A stretch of DNA of 10,282 nucleotides, taken from contig PLRZ01000176.1 in the NCBI GenBank assembly GCA_003164075.1, positions 1-10,282 on the forward strand, written 5' to 3'. Both the position numbers and the translations under genes were made by a program. The notes beneath the pieces were generated by a model. The model did not search any database and had not been told where the DNA came from. It worked only from the letters and a program-made list of their open reading frames with translations. Origin of the DNA: Bryobacterales bacterium (GTDB lineage: Bacteria; Acidobacteriota; Terriglobia; Bryobacterales; Bryobacteraceae). Positions 2,466 through 10,124 of this stretch are shown here, piece after piece (positions within the stretch are counted from its first letter, which is position 1; every line of letters starts with the position of its first letter).

Positions 2466-3485
2466 TCACGTTTTGCCGTTGATCTCCTTTTCGAGCTCAG
2501 CCAGCGTTTTCATAAGTTCGTCGAATTTCGGCGGCTGACCGAATATCATGACGCCCATATTCCGGTAGTCCCGCTCCAGTGCCGCCATGCGGGTCTCCGT
2601 CGGCATGAGACAGAGATTTCCGGGTTGCGCCAGATCGTAACGAGCCCAAGCGGCAGGATAGAACGTTTCTTTATGCCTCACGACCTGGGCGAGAAGCGGC
2701 ATGTCCGCAAGAGCCTCAGCCCGGATCGTGCTTTCCGCCAACATGGCAACGTCGTAGTAGTGACGGGAGTATCTCTCCGGTAGCGGCTTGTCCGCCGGGC
2801 GGTGAAATTCCGCGTGAAGGATCGTCGCTTTCTCCCAGAAGGTGCGCTTGCCCAGCAGCGCAACAACCTCAACATCGCCGCCTGGAATGAGCGCCGGAAA
2901 TTCTTCGGCAACAAAGGAGCGGATCGTGAAGCGATCCCGCGGCACAAATTCGGCGTGGGTGCCGAGTTCAAGGACGACTTGCGGAATAACGTAGGCCAAG
3001 CTTTTTGGAGTGGCGGTAGGGTAACGAAAGCGAACGACGTTCGGGTCCTGCGCACTGACGTCGAGGCTCCATGCCCCGCCTGTTCCGAGCACTTCCTCGC
3101 ACCGGCCTTTCAATGCATCCAGAAATTCGCTCCCGATGTAGCGCTGACATTCGATCATCATCTCGGCGAGGATATCGATGCGCTTGGATTTTGAGATTTG
3201 CTCGCGCCTGGGATCTCGCTCTCCGGTGAAACCGAGCGCCGCATAATCCACGGCAAGGTCGATATCTTCGGAGAACCGGTTTATGGCGTGGAAGATTTTC
3301 GAGAGCGAGGTCCCGCCCTTGAAGAGAAGGCGGCCGGAAAGAACCTTGATCGAGAAAAGTTGCCCAAGGACCCAGCAAACCCAGAAGTCTTTTTCGATAA
3401 TGGCGTCAGGCAAACCTTTGCGTTCCGCAGCCTCCGCAAAAACGCCGGCACGTTCCCTTGCGGGCATCTGAGCAATGCGATTCAA
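2466..3485 (-). CDS. abiEii: AbiEii/AbiGii-family nucleotidyltransferase toxin (type IV TA)
   Basis: A 339-residue toxin of the AbiEii (MenT-like) nucleotidyltransferase family. Numbered from the TTG start, visible motifs are IEKDFWVCWVL near 30-40, the nucleotide-binding FKGGTSLSK near 55-63, the metal-binding SEDIDL with Asp74 and Asp76, and RHYYDVAML in the C-terminal half, a conserved family signature. Family members transfer nucleotides, in MenT toxins to tRNA 3' ends, and cause growth arrest during phage infection. I chose TTG at 3485 because its T-T-G shares bases with the antitoxin's TGA stop (TTGA overlap) and a GGAG lies 8 nt upstream. An ATG at 3467 is the alternative; the frame stays open upstream to 3527, but that lies inside the antitoxin gene. 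It is the second gene of the AbiE operon. Reading frame and key residues look intact. Confidence 0.88.
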   Translation of the reverse strand: MNRIAQMPARERAGVFAEAAERKGLPDAIIEKDFWVCWVLGQLFSIKVLSGRLLFKGGTSLSKIFHAINRFSEDIDLAVDYAALGFTGERDPRREQISKSKRIDILAEMMIECQRYIGSEFLDALKGRCEEVLGTGGAWSLDVSAQDPNVVRFRYPTATPKSLAYVIPQVVLELGTHAEFVPRDRFTIRSFVAEEFPALIPGGDVEVVALLGKRTFWEKATILHAEFHRPADKPLPERYSRHYYDVAMLAESTIRAEALADMPLLAQVVRHKETFYPAAWARYDLAQPGNLCLMPTETRMAALERDYRNMGVMIFGQPPKFDELMKTLAELEKEINGKT

Positions 3486-4090
3486 ACCGTGTTCTCCGCG
3501 ATCGTTTTCGCCACCTCGTAAATCCAATCTACGCCGAACCGCGCATCTTTCACGAGCTTCTGTTTTTCCGCCGGAGATAGCGCTGCCCGCAGCGTCTTAA
3601 TCTCGCGAGGGCCGACCCCTTCCTTACCCAGATACCGAAGAGCCTGAACCACCAGTGCGAATTTGCCGTCAAGTCCGGCCATTGCTTTCGGACGCGCGTG
3701 CTTGAAATGAATACTTCGGCGCCCGATCGGCACATCGTTATTCGGGCCATCGGTAAGGTAGATGATTTTGGCCGGCACTTGAGTAGACAGGCCAAGCAGG
3801 TTCGCCGCCCATGCGCCTTCCGGCACGATCTTCCACCGTTGACGGCGCGCAATGGCGCGCGCCGCCTCATCGATGTCCGGACTCAATTTCCCACCTAGCG
3901 CTGGATTCATCTTTGGCCGGTCGTAAAGACCACGCCGGATGCGGCGGATATTTCCATCGCGCGTGAGGCTCGCAAGGGTAACGTCAATGGTCGTTCGACT
4001 GGCAACATCGAGAAAATCCTTCGCGGAGAAGGCTTTTCCCTCGCCGAGGCGCTCGATCCTTGCAACTATCTGATCGCGCATGGTTTGCAT
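3482..4090 (-). CDS. abiEi: AbiEi-like antitoxin/repressor (DUF6088-like) of the AbiE pair
   Basis: A 202-residue cognate antitoxin placed directly upstream of the toxin. Residues 1 to about 75 (MRDQIVARIERLGEGKAFSA, then VASRTTIDVTLASLTRDG and the basic IRRIRRGLYDRP) read as a winged helix-turn-helix. The C-terminal part, with TDGPNNDVPIGRRSIHFKHA, resembles DUF6088/AbiEi antitoxin domains. In characterised AbiE systems AbiEi neutralises the toxin and represses its own promoter by binding inverted repeats, and such a repeat lies immediately upstream here. The ATG at 4090 has AAGG 10 nt upstream. The frame continues to an ATG at 4147, but that overlaps the -35 box and would remove the promoter. 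An ATG at 4081 is the other possibility. Its TGA is shared with the toxin's TTG. Confidence 0.85.
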   Translation of the reverse strand: MQTMRDQIVARIERLGEGKAFSAKDFLDVASRTTIDVTLASLTRDGNIRRIRRGLYDRPKMNPALGGKLSPDIDEAARAIARRQRWKIVPEGAWAANLLGLSTQVPAKIIYLTDGPNNDVPIGRRSIHFKHARPKAMAGLDGKFALVVQALRYLGKEGVGPREIKTLRAALSPAEKQKLVKDARFGVDWIYEVAKTIAENTV

Positions 4091-4109
4091 GAATGTCCCG
4101 CCTTGTCGA

Positions 4110-4147
4110 TTAAGAAAAACTGTACTACTTTTTCTTAACGCTTGCAA
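4110..4147 (-). promoter_or_regulatory. AbiE promoter with overlapping perfect inverted repeat (operator)
   Basis: A perfect 10-bp inverted repeat, TTAAGAAAAA and TTTTTCTTAA (4110-4119 and 4129-4138, 9-bp spacer), lies 20 bp before the antitoxin ATG. On the minus strand TTGCAA (4147-4142) and TACAGT (4124-4119) are spaced by exactly 17 bp and form a plausible sigma-70 promoter. One arm lies between the boxes and the spacer carries most of the -10. Protein bound to the repeat would block RNA polymerase, as expected for AbiEi autorepression. Confidence 0.65.
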
Positions 4148-4170
4148 GCACCACGGTCTGAGGCGACGGT

Positions 4171-4587
4171 CTATCTCTCGACGACCAGCTCCACTTTGCC
4201 GTCACGGAGCCGCCGCGAGAAACGGCCGGTCACCCGCACCACCGGATTCACCGGCACCTGGGTTGAACGGCCTTCGTTATAGGCCCGTTCAGCTTCGGTC
4301 GGCTCCCAGCTCACACCGAGCTTGGTGAGCGCTTGCCGTGCGGCGCCGAGAAATCCATTCGGGCTGTAGAGAAGAGGCTCTCCCGTGAGGCGCGAAACGA
4401 CGGCGCGGCCATAGACGCCGTAGCCGAGGCGTACCAGGCGCTTTTCGCGGACCATGCCGCGCAACACCCGCAGCACCTGATCCTCGCCGCCGAGATCGCG
4501 GAATTCACGGGGAAGGAATACGTCGTCGCGCCGCTTCCGTGCGATCCGCTCCTCGATCCTTTCGCGCAATGTCCTCTGTTGACGCAT
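4171..4587 (-). CDS. Solitary DUF6088/AbiEi-like winged-HTH protein
   Basis: A 138-residue basic protein. It has the same opening architecture as the neighbouring antitoxin: TLRERIEERIARKRRDDVFL, then LPREFRDLGGEDQVLRVLRG, then MVREKRLVRLGYGVYGRA. That is a winged helix-turn-helix ending in the basic RLGYGVYGR wing. The C-terminal part (about 60-138) contains LLYSPNGFLGAARQALTKLG and RSTQVPVNPVVRVTGRFSRR, a pattern of DUF6088-type proteins. GAGG lies 8 nt before the ATG at 4587. Upstream in-frame ATGs (4593 and beyond) have poorer spacing. No toxin gene is paired with it: the next gene in transcription is the AbiE antitoxin, 80 bp away with its own promoter. It could be a stand-alone regulator, an orphan antitoxin or a second regulator of the AbiE operon. 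Domain recognised; function inferred. Confidence 0.72.
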   Translation of the reverse strand: MRQQRTLRERIEERIARKRRDDVFLPREFRDLGGEDQVLRVLRGMVREKRLVRLGYGVYGRAVVSRLTGEPLLYSPNGFLGAARQALTKLGVSWEPTEAERAYNEGRSTQVPVNPVVRVTGRFSRRLRDGKVELVVER

Positions 4588-4605
4588 GGCCATGCCCTCG
4601 CATTG

Positions 4606-4650
4606 AACCCGACATCCATAGCATACAAAAACCCGACACATTGCAAGCAC
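4606..4650 (-). promoter_or_regulatory. Putative control region of the solitary AbiEi-like gene
   Basis: Two direct copies of a 9-mer (AACCCGACA on the plus strand, 4606-4614 and 4630-4638) lie 24 bp apart just before this gene. A TTGCAA that could act as a -35 (4646-4641) lies beyond them. It belongs to the 10-mer TTGCAAGCAC (4641-4650), which also occurs at 4142-4151 over the -35 of the AbiE operon. The -10 is unclear (TGCTAT at 17 bp, or TATGCT at 15 bp). A repressor binding the repeats is plausible, but this is inference. Confidence 0.35.
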
Positions 4651-4745: not shown

Positions 4746-5003
4746 TCAACCCACAGTTTTTCCCTTCGGTTGATCTCCAACACCCTCTTTCAGGAACGGT
4801 GGCGACGGGCTGAGCTCGGATGGGGTGAAACCCAGCTTGAGCCAGAACGTCGAGAGATCCTCATACCGATAACGCGGGTGTCCCAGTTTGGTCGCTTTGG
4901 CAGGCGGCGGCAGAAACGATGTTAAGTCCCGAAGAACCGGGCGGCTCACCTCCAGCAACTCGGCAGCCTTCGAGATGCTGACCAACTTTAGAGCGGTGTT
5001 CAT
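4746..5003 (-). CDS. Small MerR/excisionase-like helix-turn-helix protein
   Basis: An 85-residue protein. Its N-terminal part, LVSISKAAELLEVSRPVLRD (about residues 6-25), is a typical helix-turn-helix of the MerR/excisionase superfamily: I-S-x-A-A-E-L-L-x-V-S-R then a recognition helix. A basic segment follows (PPPAKATKLGHPRYRYEDLS) that resembles the wing and the R-Y-x-x-x-D-L ending of such proteins. The C-terminus is proline-rich and probably disordered. The ATG at 5003 is chosen because it directly precedes the domain; GGGGAG lies 13 nt upstream, rather far. The frame is open upstream from a TTG at 5039, without conserved-looking sequence. Excisionase-like proteins direct recombination or act as local regulators on mobile elements, but no integrase is visible here. 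Confidence 0.62.
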   Translation of the reverse strand: MNTALKLVSISKAAELLEVSRPVLRDLTSFLPPPAKATKLGHPRYRYEDLSTFWLKLGFTPSELSPSPPFLKEGVGDQPKGKTVG

Positions 5004-5013
5004 GGGGTGTTTT

Positions 5014-5121
5014 CTACTCCCCCTCTGGACATTCTTCAAGTCGGTTTAGCGTTTTTGGTTCCTGAGGTAAATCGGAAAGCGAGGTGCTGTCCGTTTGCTC
5101 CAGCACGGTGTCCAGATTCAT
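5014..5121 (-). CDS. Possible 35-residue ORF before the MerR-like gene
   Basis: An ATG at 5121 opens 35 codons (MNLDTVLEQTDSTSLSDLPQ and on to PEGE), acidic and polar, ending in TAG 11 bp before the MerR-like ATG. The frame is open back to 5205, overlapping the end of the upstream secreted-protein gene. I see no domain and no clear Shine-Dalgarno. A GC-rich hairpin (5128-5142) lies just before it. It could be a small protein, a remnant of a longer gene or chance. Confidence 0.2.
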   Translation of the reverse strand: MNLDTVLEQTDSTSLSDLPQEPKTLNRLEECPEGE

Positions 5122-5158: not shown

Positions 5159-5773
5159 TCACTTCGGAATCGCGGCGCACGAGAGTTTCTTCGGGAGGCT
5201 GTCAACGGTCCCGTGTTCGCGGTCCCCGTAATAGAACATCGCTGGACCTGCTGATTTCTCTATGTACACAACAAACCAGCCTGTTATATCACCGTTCAAG
5301 AGACGGCCCGGACTCAGCGTCCCATCTACCGCACCTGAGAGATTTGTGAAGCTGCGCCATATACCGCTTTTGAGGTTTAAGGGAGTTCCATCGCCCCAAT
5401 CGCTCCAGCGTGGACGGTCTGTGTGGTGGAAATCCCGAATGAGCGCCGCCGTCATGATGCCCCAGCCCTTCCACTGGACTCGGCTGAGCTTTTCGGCAGA
5501 CAGGGTTTCCGGGAGGACGTGGAAAGAGGCGTCCCTCCACTGAACTATGCTGTACTCACCGTTGTCGTAGTAATCCCCACCGCACTTTGCAAGAAGACTG
5601 TCCCAAAAAAGATTGGCGGCCTCCTGCAAAGTGGCAGGCTCACGCGAACTTCTAGAGGCGGGTCCCTTCTCGGCGGTTTCCGCTTTCGGGTTTTGCGCAG
5701 CAGTGGGCATGGTCAATAGGGCCGCCGTCGCGCCGACGGCGAGAACGGCTCTTGTGTAGTTCGCGATGCACAT
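5159..5773 (-). CDS. Secreted two-cysteine protein, paralogue D of a four-gene array
   Basis: A 204-residue exported protein of a family I do not recognise. The N-terminus (MCIANYTRAVLAVGATAALL, then TMPTAAQ) is a Sec signal peptide with likely cleavage after TAA or TAAQ. The mature part has a polar linker, then the family signature LFWDSLLAKCGGDYY with Cys64, VQWKGWG, the W-x-x-W-x-D-like RWSDWGDGTP, YIEKSAGPAMFYYG and a C-terminal LSCAAIP with Cys199. Cys64 and Cys199 are the only cysteines after the signal peptide, so one disulfide joining the two ends is likely. It is the last gene of the array. It lies 96 bp after paralogue C and has its own leader, resembling that of paralogue A, so it may also be transcribed separately. 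No catalytic motif is evident. Confidence 0.7.
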   Translation of the reverse strand: MCIANYTRAVLAVGATAALLTMPTAAQNPKAETAEKGPASRSSREPATLQEAANLFWDSLLAKCGGDYYDNGEYSIVQWRDASFHVLPETLSAEKLSRVQWKGWGIMTAALIRDFHHTDRPRWSDWGDGTPLNLKSGIWRSFTNLSGAVDGTLSPGRLLNGDITGWFVVYIEKSAGPAMFYYGDREHGTVDSLPKKLSCAAIPK

Positions 5774-5787
5774 GTTTTTGGAGGCTA

Positions 5788-5834
5788 CTCACGGCGGAAA
5801 AGACCGGAGCGCCCTCTCCAAACGACTCTACCAT
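5788..5834 (-). promoter_or_regulatory. Leader of paralogue D, shared with the leader of paralogue A
   Basis: Read on the minus strand, this block runs ATGGTAGAGTCGT, a TT pair absent from the other copy, GGAGAGGGCGCTCC, a spacer and CCGTGAG, then the ATG 15 bp on. The sequence before paralogue A (7925-7963) matches it closely in the same order. The two leaders are therefore homologous, and conservation outside the coding sequence suggests a shared regulatory or translational signal. TAGAGT could be a weak -10 but no good -35 is present. Confidence 0.45.
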
Positions 5835-5869
5835 GCGGCATTAAAGACCCAGTCCGGCCCGCCGCCCCG

Positions 5870-6562
5870 TTACTGCTTTTGCGTTACCTGCGTTTCGTAC
5901 TCCGCCGTTCCAGGGATCTGCACGCAGGTCGGTTTCTCAAATGGCACTGGACCGGACTGAGAACCCCGCCTCAAGACGGTCAGGGGGCTGAGATCGACAG
6001 AGGGAACACCGTTGTTCACACCCAACCGAAAATCGTACACGTCAAAAGACCAATGCCCATCCCAGTTCTTCATTTCCATTTTCAAGAACGAGTATTCTTT
6101 CCCGGCTCCGGGTGGAGTACTGGCAGCATTCACAGGTCGGTCCGTGTATGCGTCAATCCACTCGCCCCAGCCCTTCTCCTTGCTGTAAGACTTGTAGGTT
6201 TTGCCGGTAAGGTTGGTATAGCCGCGCCACCGAAAATGGCCGCCAGTTGCTTCCAATCCCTTTATTGGATCACCCAGCTGCACCGGGTGAAACGATGGCT
6301 GCTTGTAACGGCGGATGCCATCGTACAGAACCCCTTCGTAATAGGAGTCACCACACTGCGTCAGAATGCTACCCCAAAACTGCTTAGCTGCCTGCTCTGG
6401 AGTCAACGACGAAGGCGAGGATGTTGGGGTAGCGTTTTTCTGTCCCCTCATTTCGGATGTCAGGACCGAGCCGCTTATCACGACGCCGGCGATCACTGCC
6501 GTGCAGGTAAGAGCTCGTTTCGCTTTTCTGAATGTATTAGTCAAAACCGTTATCGGGCTCAT
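5870..6562 (-). CDS. Secreted two-cysteine protein, paralogue C of a four-gene array
   Basis: A 230-residue exported protein, closely related to paralogue B. A signal peptide spans residues 1 to about 41 (basic FRKAKR, hydrophobic CTAVIAGVVISGSVL, then EMRGQ). The mature part starts with a Ser/Pro-rich linker, then AAKQFWGSILTQCGDSYYEG with Cys70, GIRRYKQPSFHP, FRWRGYTNLTGKTYKSY, GWGEWIDA, FLKMEMKNWDGHWSFD and a final PTCVQIPGTAEY with Cys213. Only these two cysteines remain after processing, which suggests one disulfide. AGGA 5 nt before the ATG at 6562 supports the start. The gene begins 7 bp after paralogue B ends, so they are co-transcribed. It shares an 18-bp identical DNA stretch (6304-6321) with paralogue B (7004-7021), consistent with a fairly recent duplication. 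Function unknown; the LTC in the signal region is not placed as a lipobox. Confidence 0.72.
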   Translation of the reverse strand: MSPITVLTNTFRKAKRALTCTAVIAGVVISGSVLTSEMRGQKNATPTSSPSSLTPEQAAKQFWGSILTQCGDSYYEGVLYDGIRRYKQPSFHPVQLGDPIKGLEATGGHFRWRGYTNLTGKTYKSYSKEKGWGEWIDAYTDRPVNAASTPPGAGKEYSFLKMEMKNWDGHWSFDVYDFRLGVNNGVPSVDLSPLTVLRRGSQSGPVPFEKPTCVQIPGTAEYETQVTQKQ

Positions 6563-6569
6563 GTTTGTC

Positions 6570-7265
6570 CTACCGTGAATTGGCTGGATGTTGTGTCACG
6601 TACTCCGGTGTACCTGGTATCTCAGCACAGCTCGCCTTTTTGATGGGCGTTAGCCCATCCGACTCCCCCATAAACCCAACGACCATAGTCCGAGGATCGA
6701 ATCTTAAAGTCGGATTGTGCAAAAGAATCTGGACCGAGCTGAATTCGGAAAAGGACCATTTCCCATTCAGATTCGACATTTCCATTTTGAGGAACACGTT
6801 CTTTCTCATAGTGGCTTGAGTGCCAAGAGCATCAATGGGTAACTCCTCCACCCCAGAGTCAATCCACCTACTCCAGCCCTCATCCTTTGTATAAGTTTTA
6901 TACACACCACCCGTAAGATATGCCCATCCGTGCCACAGGAACCCATTCTCCCGATCGGCGTTTGTAACACGTCCCGGCACCACTGGAGGAAACGAGGGCT
7001 GTTTGTAACGGCGGATGCCATGGCCCAAGACATCTTCATAATACGAGTCACCACACTGGATCAGGATGGCTCTCCAGAATTGCTTAGCCACCTGGTCAGC
7101 ATTCAGCGATGAAGGGACCGATGCCAGAGCATCTTTTTTCTGCGCTCTCATTTCGGATGTCAGGATCGAGCCGCTTATTGCAACGCCAGCGATTACTGCC
7201 GTGCAGGTGAGGGCTCTTTTCGTTGTTCTGAACGTATTGACTAAAGCTGCTGTCAACGTAGTCAT
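6570..7265 (-). CDS. Secreted two-cysteine protein, paralogue B of a four-gene array
   Basis: A 231-residue exported protein, the nearest relative of paralogue C. Its signal peptide is almost the same (RALTCTAVIAGVAISGSILT then SEMRAQ). The mature part has VAKQFWRAILIQCGDSYYED with Cys71, GIRRYKQPSFPP, FLWHGWAYLTGGVYKTY, GWSRWIDS, FLKMEMSNLNGKWSFSE and KASCAEIPGTPEY with Cys213. These are its only two cysteines after processing. Compared with C it diverges mostly in the linker and around residues 165-200, suggesting the core is kept while surface segments vary. The ATG at 7265 has no strong Shine-Dalgarno; it follows paralogue A by 22 bp and precedes paralogue C by 7 bp, as in an operon. Function unknown. 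Confidence 0.72.
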   Translation of the reverse strand: MTTLTAALVNTFRTTKRALTCTAVIAGVAISGSILTSEMRAQKKDALASVPSSLNADQVAKQFWRAILIQCGDSYYEDVLGHGIRRYKQPSFPPVVPGRVTNADRENGFLWHGWAYLTGGVYKTYTKDEGWSRWIDSGVEELPIDALGTQATMRKNVFLKMEMSNLNGKWSFSEFSSVQILLHNPTLRFDPRTMVVGFMGESDGLTPIKKASCAEIPGTPEYVTQHPANSR

Positions 7266-7287
7266 AAATGTTTCGCCAAATTAGCTA

Positions 7288-7908
7288 CTATGGGAGCAAA
7301 GCACTGCACGAGGGCTTGGCTCTGGGCATGAGTTCGGCGGCTGGCACATTGCTGAACAGCCACTTACCACTAACCTTCTCGATGATGACGGTGCCTTCCT
7401 CGCTAAAACCGCGAAATGGTTGATTAGGGTAGGTGGAATCTTTCCATTCGCTCCATTTTCCGTCCTGGTCTCGGTCCCGCCACGCGGTAGCCCTAATCGT
7501 ACCTTGGCCTATCCACGTAACGCCGTTCAACGCGTCGGCTGGAGAAATGCTTGTCGGCAAGAGTTTGAACGTTACTCCCTTGTACTCCCACAACAACTGT
7601 GGGGGCTGTTCACCACGCAGTTTCCAAATTCTACTGCTGAGAATGTCTTCAGCCGAACCATTGGTCAGATGGAGCTTCGATCCCCCGTAAACCCAAGAGT
7701 CCCCACACTTCGTGAGAATCGTGTCCCAAAGGTATTGAGCCGCCTTCTGGCCGTCGGCGTTTGCTGGTAGCGCCGTATTCCCAGAATGCGCACCGCTGGG
7801 CCTTCCATTAGAGGCCGTGGCAGGCGCTCGCCCGGTCTGTCCGTATGCGGCACAGGCTGAGGCAAAGATCACGGTGAGAACGACGTTGGCGTAGGTGTCG
7901 GTTCGCAT
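7288..7908 (-). CDS. Secreted two-cysteine protein, paralogue A (first of the array)
   Basis: A 206-residue exported protein. The signal peptide is MRTDTYANVVLTVIFASACA then AYGQ, with likely cleavage after AYG. After a Ser/Gly/Ala-rich linker come AAQYLWDTILTKCGDSWVYG with Cys68, LLWEYKGVTFKLLP, VTWIGQGTIRATAWRDRD, KWSEWKDS, IIEKVSGKWLFSN and a terminal KPSCSALLP with Cys201. It has the family's two mature cysteines. I chose the ATG at 7908 because it aligns with paralogue D's ATG when their upstream regions are matched and has GGGATGG 8 nt upstream. GTG 7929 and ATG 7920 are alternatives. A lacks the RRYKQPSF segment of B and C and is closer to D in the middle region (LLPTSISPADAL versus VLPETLSAEKL). 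It lies divergently next to an XRE regulator that may control it. Confidence 0.7.
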   Translation of the reverse strand: MRTDTYANVVLTVIFASACAAYGQTGRAPATASNGRPSGAHSGNTALPANADGQKAAQYLWDTILTKCGDSWVYGGSKLHLTNGSAEDILSSRIWKLRGEQPPQLLWEYKGVTFKLLPTSISPADALNGVTWIGQGTIRATAWRDRDQDGKWSEWKDSTYPNQPFRGFSEEGTVIIEKVSGKWLFSNVPAAELMPRAKPSCSALLP

Positions 7909-7924
7909 GGTGGAAACCATCCCG

Positions 7925-7963
7925 CTCACGGGCAGCGGGGCGCCTTCTCCACGACTCTACCAT
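7925..7963 (-). promoter_or_regulatory. Leader of paralogue A, shared with the leader of paralogue D
   Basis: On the minus strand the block reads ATGGTAGAGTCGT, GGAGAAGGCGCCCC, a short spacer and CCCGTGAG, ending 17 bp before the chosen ATG. It corresponds element by element to 5788-5834 ahead of paralogue D, with small gaps. It lies between paralogue A and the divergent XRE gene, where an operator would be expected. A defined promoter is not obvious to me. Confidence 0.45.
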
Positions 7964-8011: not shown

Positions 8012-8305
8012 TTGGAAGATGTGGGGGCAAGCAGAGAACTTCCGGCACATTACGCGCGCTTTTTCCGGGCGCTCGGTCACGAAATCCGGGCTTGCAGGAC
8101 CGCGCGCAAATTGAGCCAGGAAGATATGATCTCTTACGGCTTCAGCGTCCGCCACTGGCAAATGATGGAAGCCGGGCGCCCCATCACTGTTTTCACACTG
8201 CTACGAGTCTGCGAGACGTTTGAGGTTCCGGTCGAGCAGCTCGTGGGGTCCGTGGCCCATCATCTTCGCAAGCGCAAGAAGCCCCGCTCGGAAGGTTCCC
8301 TATAG
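8012..8305 (+). CDS. XRE-family helix-turn-helix transcriptional regulator
   Basis: A 97-residue DNA-binding protein. FRALGHEIRACRTARKLSQE (about 18-37), DMISYGFSVRHWQMMEAGRP (38-57) and ITVFTLLRVCETFEVPVEQL (58-77) give the five-helix Cro/C1-type fold: L-S-Q-E-D-x before the turn, the recognition helix SVRHWQMMEAGR, then the closing helices. A basic tail (HHLRKRKKPR) follows. Only non-ATG starts exist: the frame opens after a TGA at 8003-8005 and offers TTG 8012 or GTG 8021, neither with a good Shine-Dalgarno, so the N-terminus is uncertain by a few residues. It is divergent from the secreted-protein array, about 100 bp from its first ATG, and could regulate that array and itself. This role is inferred from position only. 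Confidence 0.7.
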   Translation: MEDVGASRELPAHYARFFRALGHEIRACRTARKLSQEDMISYGFSVRHWQMMEAGRPITVFTLLRVCETFEVPVEQLVGSVAHHLRKRKKPRSEGSL

Positions 8306-8730: not shown

Positions 8731-9030
8731 ATGACAACAGCCACACACACGCCGGGACCGTGGAGAGTATTCGACGCCTTCGTTGATCCTGAAATCGTTA
8801 CCGACCAGCCAACCGCCCACGAGACGGAAAGCCTTGTGCAGTTCAAGGGGCAGCGGAACGCTAAGGCCAACGCCCGGCTCATGGCCTCCGCGCCGGAGAT
8901 GCTGGATGCCTTGCAGCTCTGCGAAGACGTACTTGCCGACCTCGCCCGGCTCGATGACGGGACGCCATCCATTAGCGCGCTCAGCATGGCCCGCGCCGTC
9001 ATTGCCAAGGCTACGGGAGGCAGGCGATGA
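8731..9030 (+). CDS. Small phage/plasmid-type protein with an HTPGPW motif
   Basis: A 99-residue protein. It has the hallmarks of a widespread, uncharacterised family on phages and plasmids: an N-terminal THTPGPW (6-12), a central ANARLMASAPEMLDALQ (about 46-62) and a C-terminal acidic then Ala-rich helix. No enzymatic role is known to me. AAAGG lies 9 nt before the ATG. Its TGA overlaps the ATG of the SprT-like gene (ATGA), so the two are translated together. A long hairpin stands just upstream of its ribosome-binding site. The gene marks this part as mobile-element DNA; the function is not inferable from sequence. Confidence 0.75.
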   Translation: MTTATHTPGPWRVFDAFVDPEIVTDQPTAHETESLVQFKGQRNAKANARLMASAPEMLDALQLCEDVLADLARLDDGTPSISALSMARAVIAKATGGRR

Positions 9031-9791
9031 AGCGTCTTCCCCAAAAGCGGATTCTATCGTACGACAGAAACATGAAAGCCGAACCCATCACCCCCGCCGA
9101 GTACCGCGCCTTCCAGAAGGCGTACGACTTCTTCAACGCGGAGTTGTTCGGCAATTCCCTGCCGCATGTGCTGGTGACCTTGCAGCGCCACGCCAACGCG
9201 CGAGGGTATTTTTCGCCCGAGCGTTTTACCGGCCGCATCGAGCATGCGGCCGTCCACGAACTCGCCATGAACCCGGACACGTTCACCGGCCGCACCGACG
9301 AGGAAATCCTCTCCACGCTCGCTCATGAAATGGCGCATGTTTGGCAGCAGACCCACGGCAAGCCGCCGACCCGCTGCTACCATGACCGGCAATGGGCCGC
9401 GAAGATGAAGGAGATCGGCTTGCAGCCATCCACCACCGGCGAACACGGGGGCAAGGAAACCGGCCAGAGCGTCACGCATTACATCATCCCCGGCGGCCCT
9501 TACGCCGTGGCCTACGCGAAGCTCGAGGCGAGCGGCTTTCAACTGCATTGGGAATCGGCCCCGCAAAGCCCGCAGGCCAAGCTGAAGAAGGCCAGCAAGA
9601 CGAAATTCACGTGCCCGGAGTGCGAACAGAACGCATGGGCCAAGCCTGATGCCCTGCTCATCTGTGGGCACTGCTACGAGGACGGCGAAGGTGATGTTCA
9701 CCTCATGCTGGCCGAGCCGGAAGCCGCCGGCGATGCCCGCCCGGTTCCTGCCCGGCGCCGGCCGGCAGCACGACACCCGCAGCCGGTTTGA
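9027..9791 (+). CDS. SprT-like zinc metalloprotease with C-terminal zinc ribbon
   Basis: A 254-residue protein of the SprT-like family. FQKAYDFFNAELFGNSLPHV (about 29-48) is the usual N-terminal segment. The catalytic zinc site is LAHEMAHVW with His100, Glu101 and His104, and His119 in CYHDRQWAAKM is the likely third ligand. A zinc ribbon follows with Cys196, Cys199, Cys213 and Cys216 (CPEC, CGHC). The tail is a Pro/Arg-rich, disordered extension. SprT-like proteins such as SPRTN cleave DNA-bound proteins; bacterial plasmid versions are mostly uncharacterised. I chose the ATG at 9027 because GGAGG lies 6 nt upstream and it overlaps the previous stop (ATGA). ATG 9072 (giving MKAEPITP) is an alternative without a Shine-Dalgarno. 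All zinc ligands appear intact, so it is probably active. Confidence 0.85.
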   Translation: MKRLPQKRILSYDRNMKAEPITPAEYRAFQKAYDFFNAELFGNSLPHVLVTLQRHANARGYFSPERFTGRIEHAAVHELAMNPDTFTGRTDEEILSTLAHEMAHVWQQTHGKPPTRCYHDRQWAAKMKEIGLQPSTTGEHGGKETGQSVTHYIIPGGPYAVAYAKLEASGFQLHWESAPQSPQAKLKKASKTKFTCPECEQNAWAKPDALLICGHCYEDGEGDVHLMLAEPEAAGDARPVPARRRPAARHPQPV

Positions 9792-9808
9792 GGCACCCCA
9801 CGAAGCGT

Positions 9809-9837
9809 TTGACAACTGATAACATCCAGTTTACGGT
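9809..9837 (+). promoter_or_regulatory. Candidate higBA promoter with a small inverted repeat
   Basis: TTGACA (9809-9814) is a perfect -35 box, with TACGGT (9832-9837, three of six) 17 bp further on. Between them AACTG and CAGTT (9814-9818, 9827-9831) form an inverted repeat that could bind HigA, as higBA operons are usually autorepressed. It ends 9 bp before the HigB ATG, so the leader would be very short. Confidence 0.5.
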
Positions 9838-9845
9838 GTACGCTA

Positions 9846-10124
9846 ATGATTAGGAGCTTCAAGCACCGGGGCCTGAAGCGGCTCTATGAACGCGGCGACC
9901 GGAGCGGGATACGCCCGGACCTGTTGGAGACGGTCGACCGAATCCTCACGGTTCTCGACAACGCCGCCACGCCGCAAGCGCTGAATATTCCCCGGTATCG
10001 CCTGCACCAACTCAAAGGCGAGTTGAAAGGGTTGTGGTCGGTGACGGTACGCGCCAATTGGCGCATTGTTTTCCGTTTTGAAGGAACGGACGCTTTCGAC
10101 GTTGAATTGATCGATTACCACTAG
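9846..10124 (+). CDS. higB: HigB-type (RelE/ParE superfamily) toxin
   Basis: A 92-residue toxin of the HigB branch. Its signatures are MIRSFKHRGLKRLYERGDRS (1-20), the central LNIPRYRLHQLKGELKGLWS (about 46-65), VTVRANWRIVFRFEG and the terminal DVELIDYH. HigB toxins cleave mRNA on the ribosome and are blocked by HigA. Length and motifs match full family members, with no visible damage. The start has no strong Shine-Dalgarno, consistent with the short leader predicted from the promoter. The stop TAG merges into the AGGAG of the antitoxin gene, so expression is coupled in the toxin-first order typical of higBA. HigBA pairs commonly stabilise mobile elements. Confidence 0.88.
   Translation: MIRSFKHRGLKRLYERGDRSGIRPDLLETVDRILTVLDNAATPQALNIPRYRLHQLKGELKGLWSVTVRANWRIVFRFEGTDAFDVELIDYH

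Follow-up and report, generated by a model that had tools for sequence, protein, structure and literature searches.

The closest described counterparts of the locus reported here are arrays of immunity genes. Homogeneous polyimmunity operons, as presented in the parts of PMC3482391 considered here, consist of tandem paralogues of one family and usually lack toxin genes; the same source lists immunity families with the NTF2 fold, and some of its immunity families have conserved tryptophans. On mobile elements of the Bacteroidales, arrays of orphan immunity genes occur without an effector (PMC10470768, in the portion considered). Here we analyze a 10,282-nucleotide (nt) stretch of contig PLRZ01000176.1 from a Bryobacterales bacterium (assembly GCA_003164075.1), hereafter the window, in which four consecutive genes, labeled A to D, appear to encode a new and very rare family of small proteins with export-type leaders. 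The relationship among the four is well supported by comparisons of their sequences.

As in the homogeneous polyimmunity loci, A–D are tandem paralogues of one family. They differ from these loci, as described in the same parts of PMC3482391, in matching no immunity family, in looking exported and in having no known cognate toxin, and the exchange of leaders and cores seen in the A–D family is not among the polyimmunity features taken from that source. The families Imm-NTF2 and Imm-NTF2-2 described there share with A–D conserved tryptophans and a possible NTF2-like alpha+beta fold, but A–D have leaders and two invariant cysteines and give no Pfam match. The Bacteroidales arrays resemble the locus in that immunity-type genes are arrayed on mobile elements; in the portion of PMC10470768 considered those genes are diverse, whereas A–D all belong to one unassigned family.

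Homology and rarity of the four proteins

All four genes lie on the minus strand and have intact open reading frames: A at positions 5159–5773, B at 5870–6562, C at 6570–7265, and D at 7288–7908 with an ATG start or 7288–7929 with a GTG start. The ATG at 7908 is probably the start of D because two related proteins, P0004 and P0006 (P0001 to P0010 denote clusters returned by the protein searches below), begin with MRTDTYAK, the leader of D itself reading MRTDTYAN. The series in transcription order is D, C, B, A, with gaps of 22, 7 and 96 nt, respectively, and D, C and B look like one operon because the first two gaps are so short.

The first-pass annotation of this DNA had described four exported same-strand paralogues sharing a set of motifs, and all of these motifs were found in the four translations, behind hydrophobic leaders recognized by eye. 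In the order A, B, C, D the motifs read LFW, QFW, QFW and YLW; LLAKCG, ILTQCG, ILIQCG and ILTKCG; WKG, WRG, WHG and WIG for W-x-G; WSDWGD, WGEWID, WSRWID and WSEWKD for W-x-x-W-x-D; and CAAIP, CVQIP, CAEIP and CSALLP at the terminal cysteine. Cysteines occur at positions 2, 64 and 199 in A, 20, 70 and 213 in B, 21, 71 and 213 in C, and 26, 75 and 208 in D. The annotation's further statement that each mature protein has exactly two cysteines holds for the window proteins if, as judged by eye, the first cysteine sits in a cleaved leader, but it does not extend to the relatives P0003, P0004, P0006, P0009 and P0010, which carry extra cysteines beyond the start of the core.

A hidden Markov model built from B, C, P0003, P0004 and P0009 scored A at 46.2 and D at 50.0 bits, compared with 7.7 and 6.4 bits for the best shuffled versions, and a model built from D, P0006, P0007, P0008 and P0010 scored A, B and C at 29.1, 18.6 and 29.3 bits, compared with 4.5, 7.7 and 4.5 bits (300 shuffles per protein, 233 to 266 of which were scored by the program). 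The same cross-half test applied to the relatives gave a lowest score of 17.0 (P0010) and a top shuffle of 10.2 (for P0003, which itself scored 37.9). Because profiles of one half of the family recover window proteins of the other half with scores between 18.6 and 50.0 bits, compared with 7.7 bits or less for their shuffles, we conclude from these comparisons that A, B, C and D are homologous, as the annotation had proposed.

Gene C is a tandem duplicate of B, and the duplication is visible at the DNA level over 266 nt with 77% identity. The pair shows nonsynonymous and synonymous divergence (dN and dS) of 0.41 and 1.18, indicating constraint at the protein level. The divergence is uneven along the genes, with 64 of 90 residues identical in the first part and 51 of 137 in the remainder; the corresponding identities at fourfold sites are 18/30 and 6/22 (p = 0.03). 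This unevenness is compatible with partial gene conversion between B and C but does not prove it.

No convincing match to A–D was found in Pfam, NCBIfam, PHROGs or PADLOC, with Pfam scanned at expectation values (E) up to 1 for A–D and up to 10 for the 11 family members. The earlier impression that the proteins contain no known domain is thus borne out, and no profile of a known family matched all four. Gene C gave two short single matches, to a PHROG (E = 0.036) and to an NCBIfam permease (E = 0.051), which are taken as chance. Among the 11 members the only good Pfam match is that of P0007 to TonB_C (PF03544, E = 1.3e-14), a domain matched by none of A–D; eight further families each match one member, the best with E = 0.02.

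Searches over 5.8 billion protein sequences, which rely on shared 5-residue words and may therefore miss distant relatives, returned ten clusters in total. Clusters P0001 and P0005 correspond to C and D of the window itself, P0002 is B at 99.6%, and no cluster for A was among the answers; the seven clusters from outside the window carry the source names hypothetical protein (four) and protein TonB (one) or are nameless (two). The longest contig listed is 21,699 for both P0006 and P0007, and a second array may lie on one contig. Translated searches (tblastn) detected no relative of D in plasmids or phages and none of C or P0007 in plasmids. In viral contigs, alignment A1 yielded 69 stretches, C four and D none, and in GTDB genome contigs alignment A5 yielded 31, none of them confirmed; of 25 stretches obtained with P0007 in the GTDB contigs the single confirmed one, from Sporomusa malonica, matches TonB_C and is not a relative of the family. 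Since the contig scans rely on a small number of short peptide patterns, they do not prove that the family is absent. Rfam gave no match at gathering scores, and narrow searches of the open-licence literature found no work on the family. DUF4019 was considered as a further candidate for comparison of profiles and abandoned, since matches came from 2 of 101 genomes and neither passed the cut-off.

Different histories of leader and core, and a shared upstream block

The family can be grouped by leader and by core, and the two groupings disagree. One leader type occurs in D, P0003, P0004, P0006 and P0009 (pairwise identity 45 to 71%) and another in B and C, whose leaders are 69% identical to each other and 18 to 28% identical to the D-type leaders; P0007 has TonB_C, a periplasmic domain, in the place of the leader ahead of the core. 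One core type comprises B, C, P0003, P0004 and P0009 (43 to 64% identity) and a second D, P0006, P0008 and P0010 (31 to 56%), together with P0007 by alignment (52% to D), and the core of A is separate from both, sharing 24 to 35% identity with the nine other cores compared. Thus the leader of P0004 resembles that of D (32/51 identical residues) and not that of C (11/44), whereas its core resembles that of C (77/159) and not that of D (42/125). Leader and core identities differ at p < 0.05 in 8 of 10 hand-picked pairs, the exceptions being D–P0003 and D–P0009. However, leaders are also more alike than cores in pairs of the same type (37/54 vs. 78/173 for B–C, and 37/52 vs. 63/148 for D–P0006), and the argument for discordance therefore rests on the crossing groups, chiefly C or B compared with P0004 and P0009. 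It seems that the leader must have been replaced, and TonB_C gained or lost, at least once each.

The upstream regions of A and D contain a common block, 30 nt at 5805–5834 ahead of A and 28 nt at 7936–7963 ahead of D (minus strand), aligned with 26 of 28 bases identical and one 2-nt gap and located 28 to 61 nt ahead of the starts. The alignment score of 39 exceeds the best of 5000 base shuffles (26) and the remaining 27 of the 28 pairs among eight upstream regions (20 at most), in support of the view that both upstream regions derive from one ancestral sequence; A is perhaps transcribed separately. Inverted repeats of at least 7 nt are absent upstream of D and represented by one pair upstream of A, and none marks the block. 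A search of viral contigs with the block gave no result, and promoter and terminator scans found 2 and 2 candidates compared with 1.8 and 3.6 in shuffled sequences. The divergent XRE-type helix-turn-helix (HTH) gene on the plus strand at 8012–8305 (HTH_31, E = 3.9e-5, under the Pfam cut-off) is a possible regulator of the array.

Core structure and possible roles of the array

Eight residues (A15, W19, C26, G27, F72, W90, G139 and C159 in D numbering) are invariant in the nine cores of alignment A3, which excludes P0009 and P0010, and both motif cysteines are kept in all nine; W19, C26, G27, F72, W90 and C159 remain invariant when these two relatives are added. No histidine, glutamate, aspartate or lysine is invariant across the nine cores, and none of the invariant residues is typical of catalysis, nor is any catalytic set recognizable. 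Spacers range from 17 to 60 residues between C26 and F72, 37 to 56 between W90 and G139, and 19 to 55 between G139 and C159. P0004 and P0009 have an additional CxxxxC pair at the W-x-x-W turn, with the first tryptophan replaced by cysteine. This pair could form a second disulfide, and such pairs, five residues apart, are what an oxidizing compartment would allow.

AlphaFold models were made of C and D only, both drawing on alignments of the same relatives, with a predicted local distance difference (pLDDT) of 79.0 and a predicted template modeling score (pTM) of 0.74 for D, and 76.1 and 0.72 for C. The two models have one topology, their predicted secondary structures agreeing at 110 of 134 aligned residues compared with 91 in the best of 133 rotations, and the unrelated folds that would have spoken against the annotation's proposal did not appear. 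In the predicted order of elements a helix comes first, then a short hairpin with the first cysteine, a strand and a short helix. A long hairpin begins at W-x-G and leads to the turn with the W-x-x-W-x-D motif, after which the chain forms its final hairpin and, where the terminal cysteine lies, another short helix. The top VIA-align rows for the D model are mostly cystatin-like or NTF2-like, with weak fold similarity, and the core is perhaps a diverged fold of this kind. The D model matched nothing in BFVD at E up to 1e-3, and an NTF2-like Pfam profile is neither matched by A–D (E up to 1) nor among the nine families listed for the 11 members (E up to 10). We do not claim membership in Imm-NTF2 because its profile (PF15655) matches neither A–D nor the 11 members; Imm-NTF2 proteins for a profile–profile comparison were sought in 199 genomes, none of which had any, and the control genomes yielded none either.

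The absence of conserved catalytic residues favors binding over catalysis, and we tentatively propose that A–D are exported immunity-like binders which work in the manner of a homogeneous polyimmunity locus. The tandem arrangement, the tendency to exchange parts and the defence-rich surroundings of the array recall such loci (PMC3482391) as well as the orphan immunity arrays of PMC10470768. The proteins would leave the cytoplasm by means of the leader and reside in the periplasm or at the cell surface. In their core a single helix would pack against an antiparallel sheet, with a bond between the two cysteines pinning the N-terminal part to the C-terminus and with the variable stretches displayed on this fixed frame. 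Because no catalytic set is recognizable and spacer lengths vary strongly, each copy would most likely bind a different partner. The array D-C-B, possibly with A, may have expanded on an accessory element as genes were duplicated and parts of leaders or cores were replaced, and the resulting stock of exported binders would block harmful molecules that reach the envelope.

A somewhat less probable scenario, and on the whole an unlikely one, is that the copies are periplasmic carriers or sensors, each with its own small ligand, which is bound in an NTF2-like pocket and passed on to an uptake system, with the TonB_C fusion as a coupling device. The fusion of TonB_C to the core in P0007, the ligand-pocket proteins among the weak structural rows of D and the possibility of tuning a pocket by variable spacers fit this scenario, but only one of the 11 members has TonB_C, the fold similarity is weak, and the Pfam scan of 10 window genes showed no transporter or receptor. 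It is improbable that A–D act as decoys on the cell surface or as structural components of the envelope, with variable parts that diversified to evade phages or predators and without neutralizing a toxin: the exchange of leader and core pieces and the contrast between the conserved start (64/90) and diverged rest (51/137) of B and C would agree with it, yet no sorting or anchoring signal was recognized beyond the leaders, and a lipobox in the D-type leaders is doubtful. That the proteins are secreted NTF2-like enzymes, such as isomerases or dehydratases, each with its own substrate, is more improbable still, given that no histidine, glutamate, aspartate or lysine is shared by all nine aligned cores at one position and that no enzyme family matches. 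That the genes are chance or decaying reading frames is hardly credible, since all four frames are intact, the profiles recover the proteins at scores above those of shuffles, and dN < dS for B–C, even though relatives are few in the collections searched.

If the array is indeed an exported immunity stock, it would extend the polyimmunity idea to the envelope, with four diverged binders. The family is in none of the four libraries searched and hardly occurs in a very large collection of proteins, and it combines a clear core with an exchanged leader. We can only speculate, at long odds, that a leader-swapping, cassette-like array of exported binders forms an envelope defence layer complementing intracellular Hachiman and AbiE on the same accessory element, selection having fitted individual copies to different toxins or phages that reach the cell.

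Genomic setting

The first-pass annotation also placed the array among defence and toxin–antitoxin genes, and HamA, HamB, AbiEi, AbiEii and a RelE-type toxin do surround it. To the left are the two Hachiman components, HamA and HamB; HamB is shortened and lies within 1–1555 on the minus strand, matching positions 1–472 of a 1163-position model with its frame stopping at 140. The Hachiman helicase is seemingly interrupted by an insertion sequence, because HamB is shortened and an open frame at 1–105 reads as what we take to be the start of an IS3-type transposase. The AbiEii/AbiEi pair follows, preceded by a second DUF6088/AbiEi-like gene (2466–4650, minus strand); this second gene has 80% DNA identity over 434 bp to a plasmid of the alphaproteobacterium Defluviicoccus vanus. 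To the right, on the plus strand at 8731–10124, are a PHROG 1273 gene, an SprT-like metallopeptidase gene, which matches 2615 plasmid records, and a gene for a toxin of the RelE/StbE type. Judging from these neighbors, the region is accessory DNA, probably derived from a plasmid. The style of the TonB_C domain in P0007 may point to Acidobacteriota as the host group. Just downstream of A, a small MerR/excisionase-like HTH gene occupies 4746–5039 on the minus strand (weak Pfam match, E = 0.0031).
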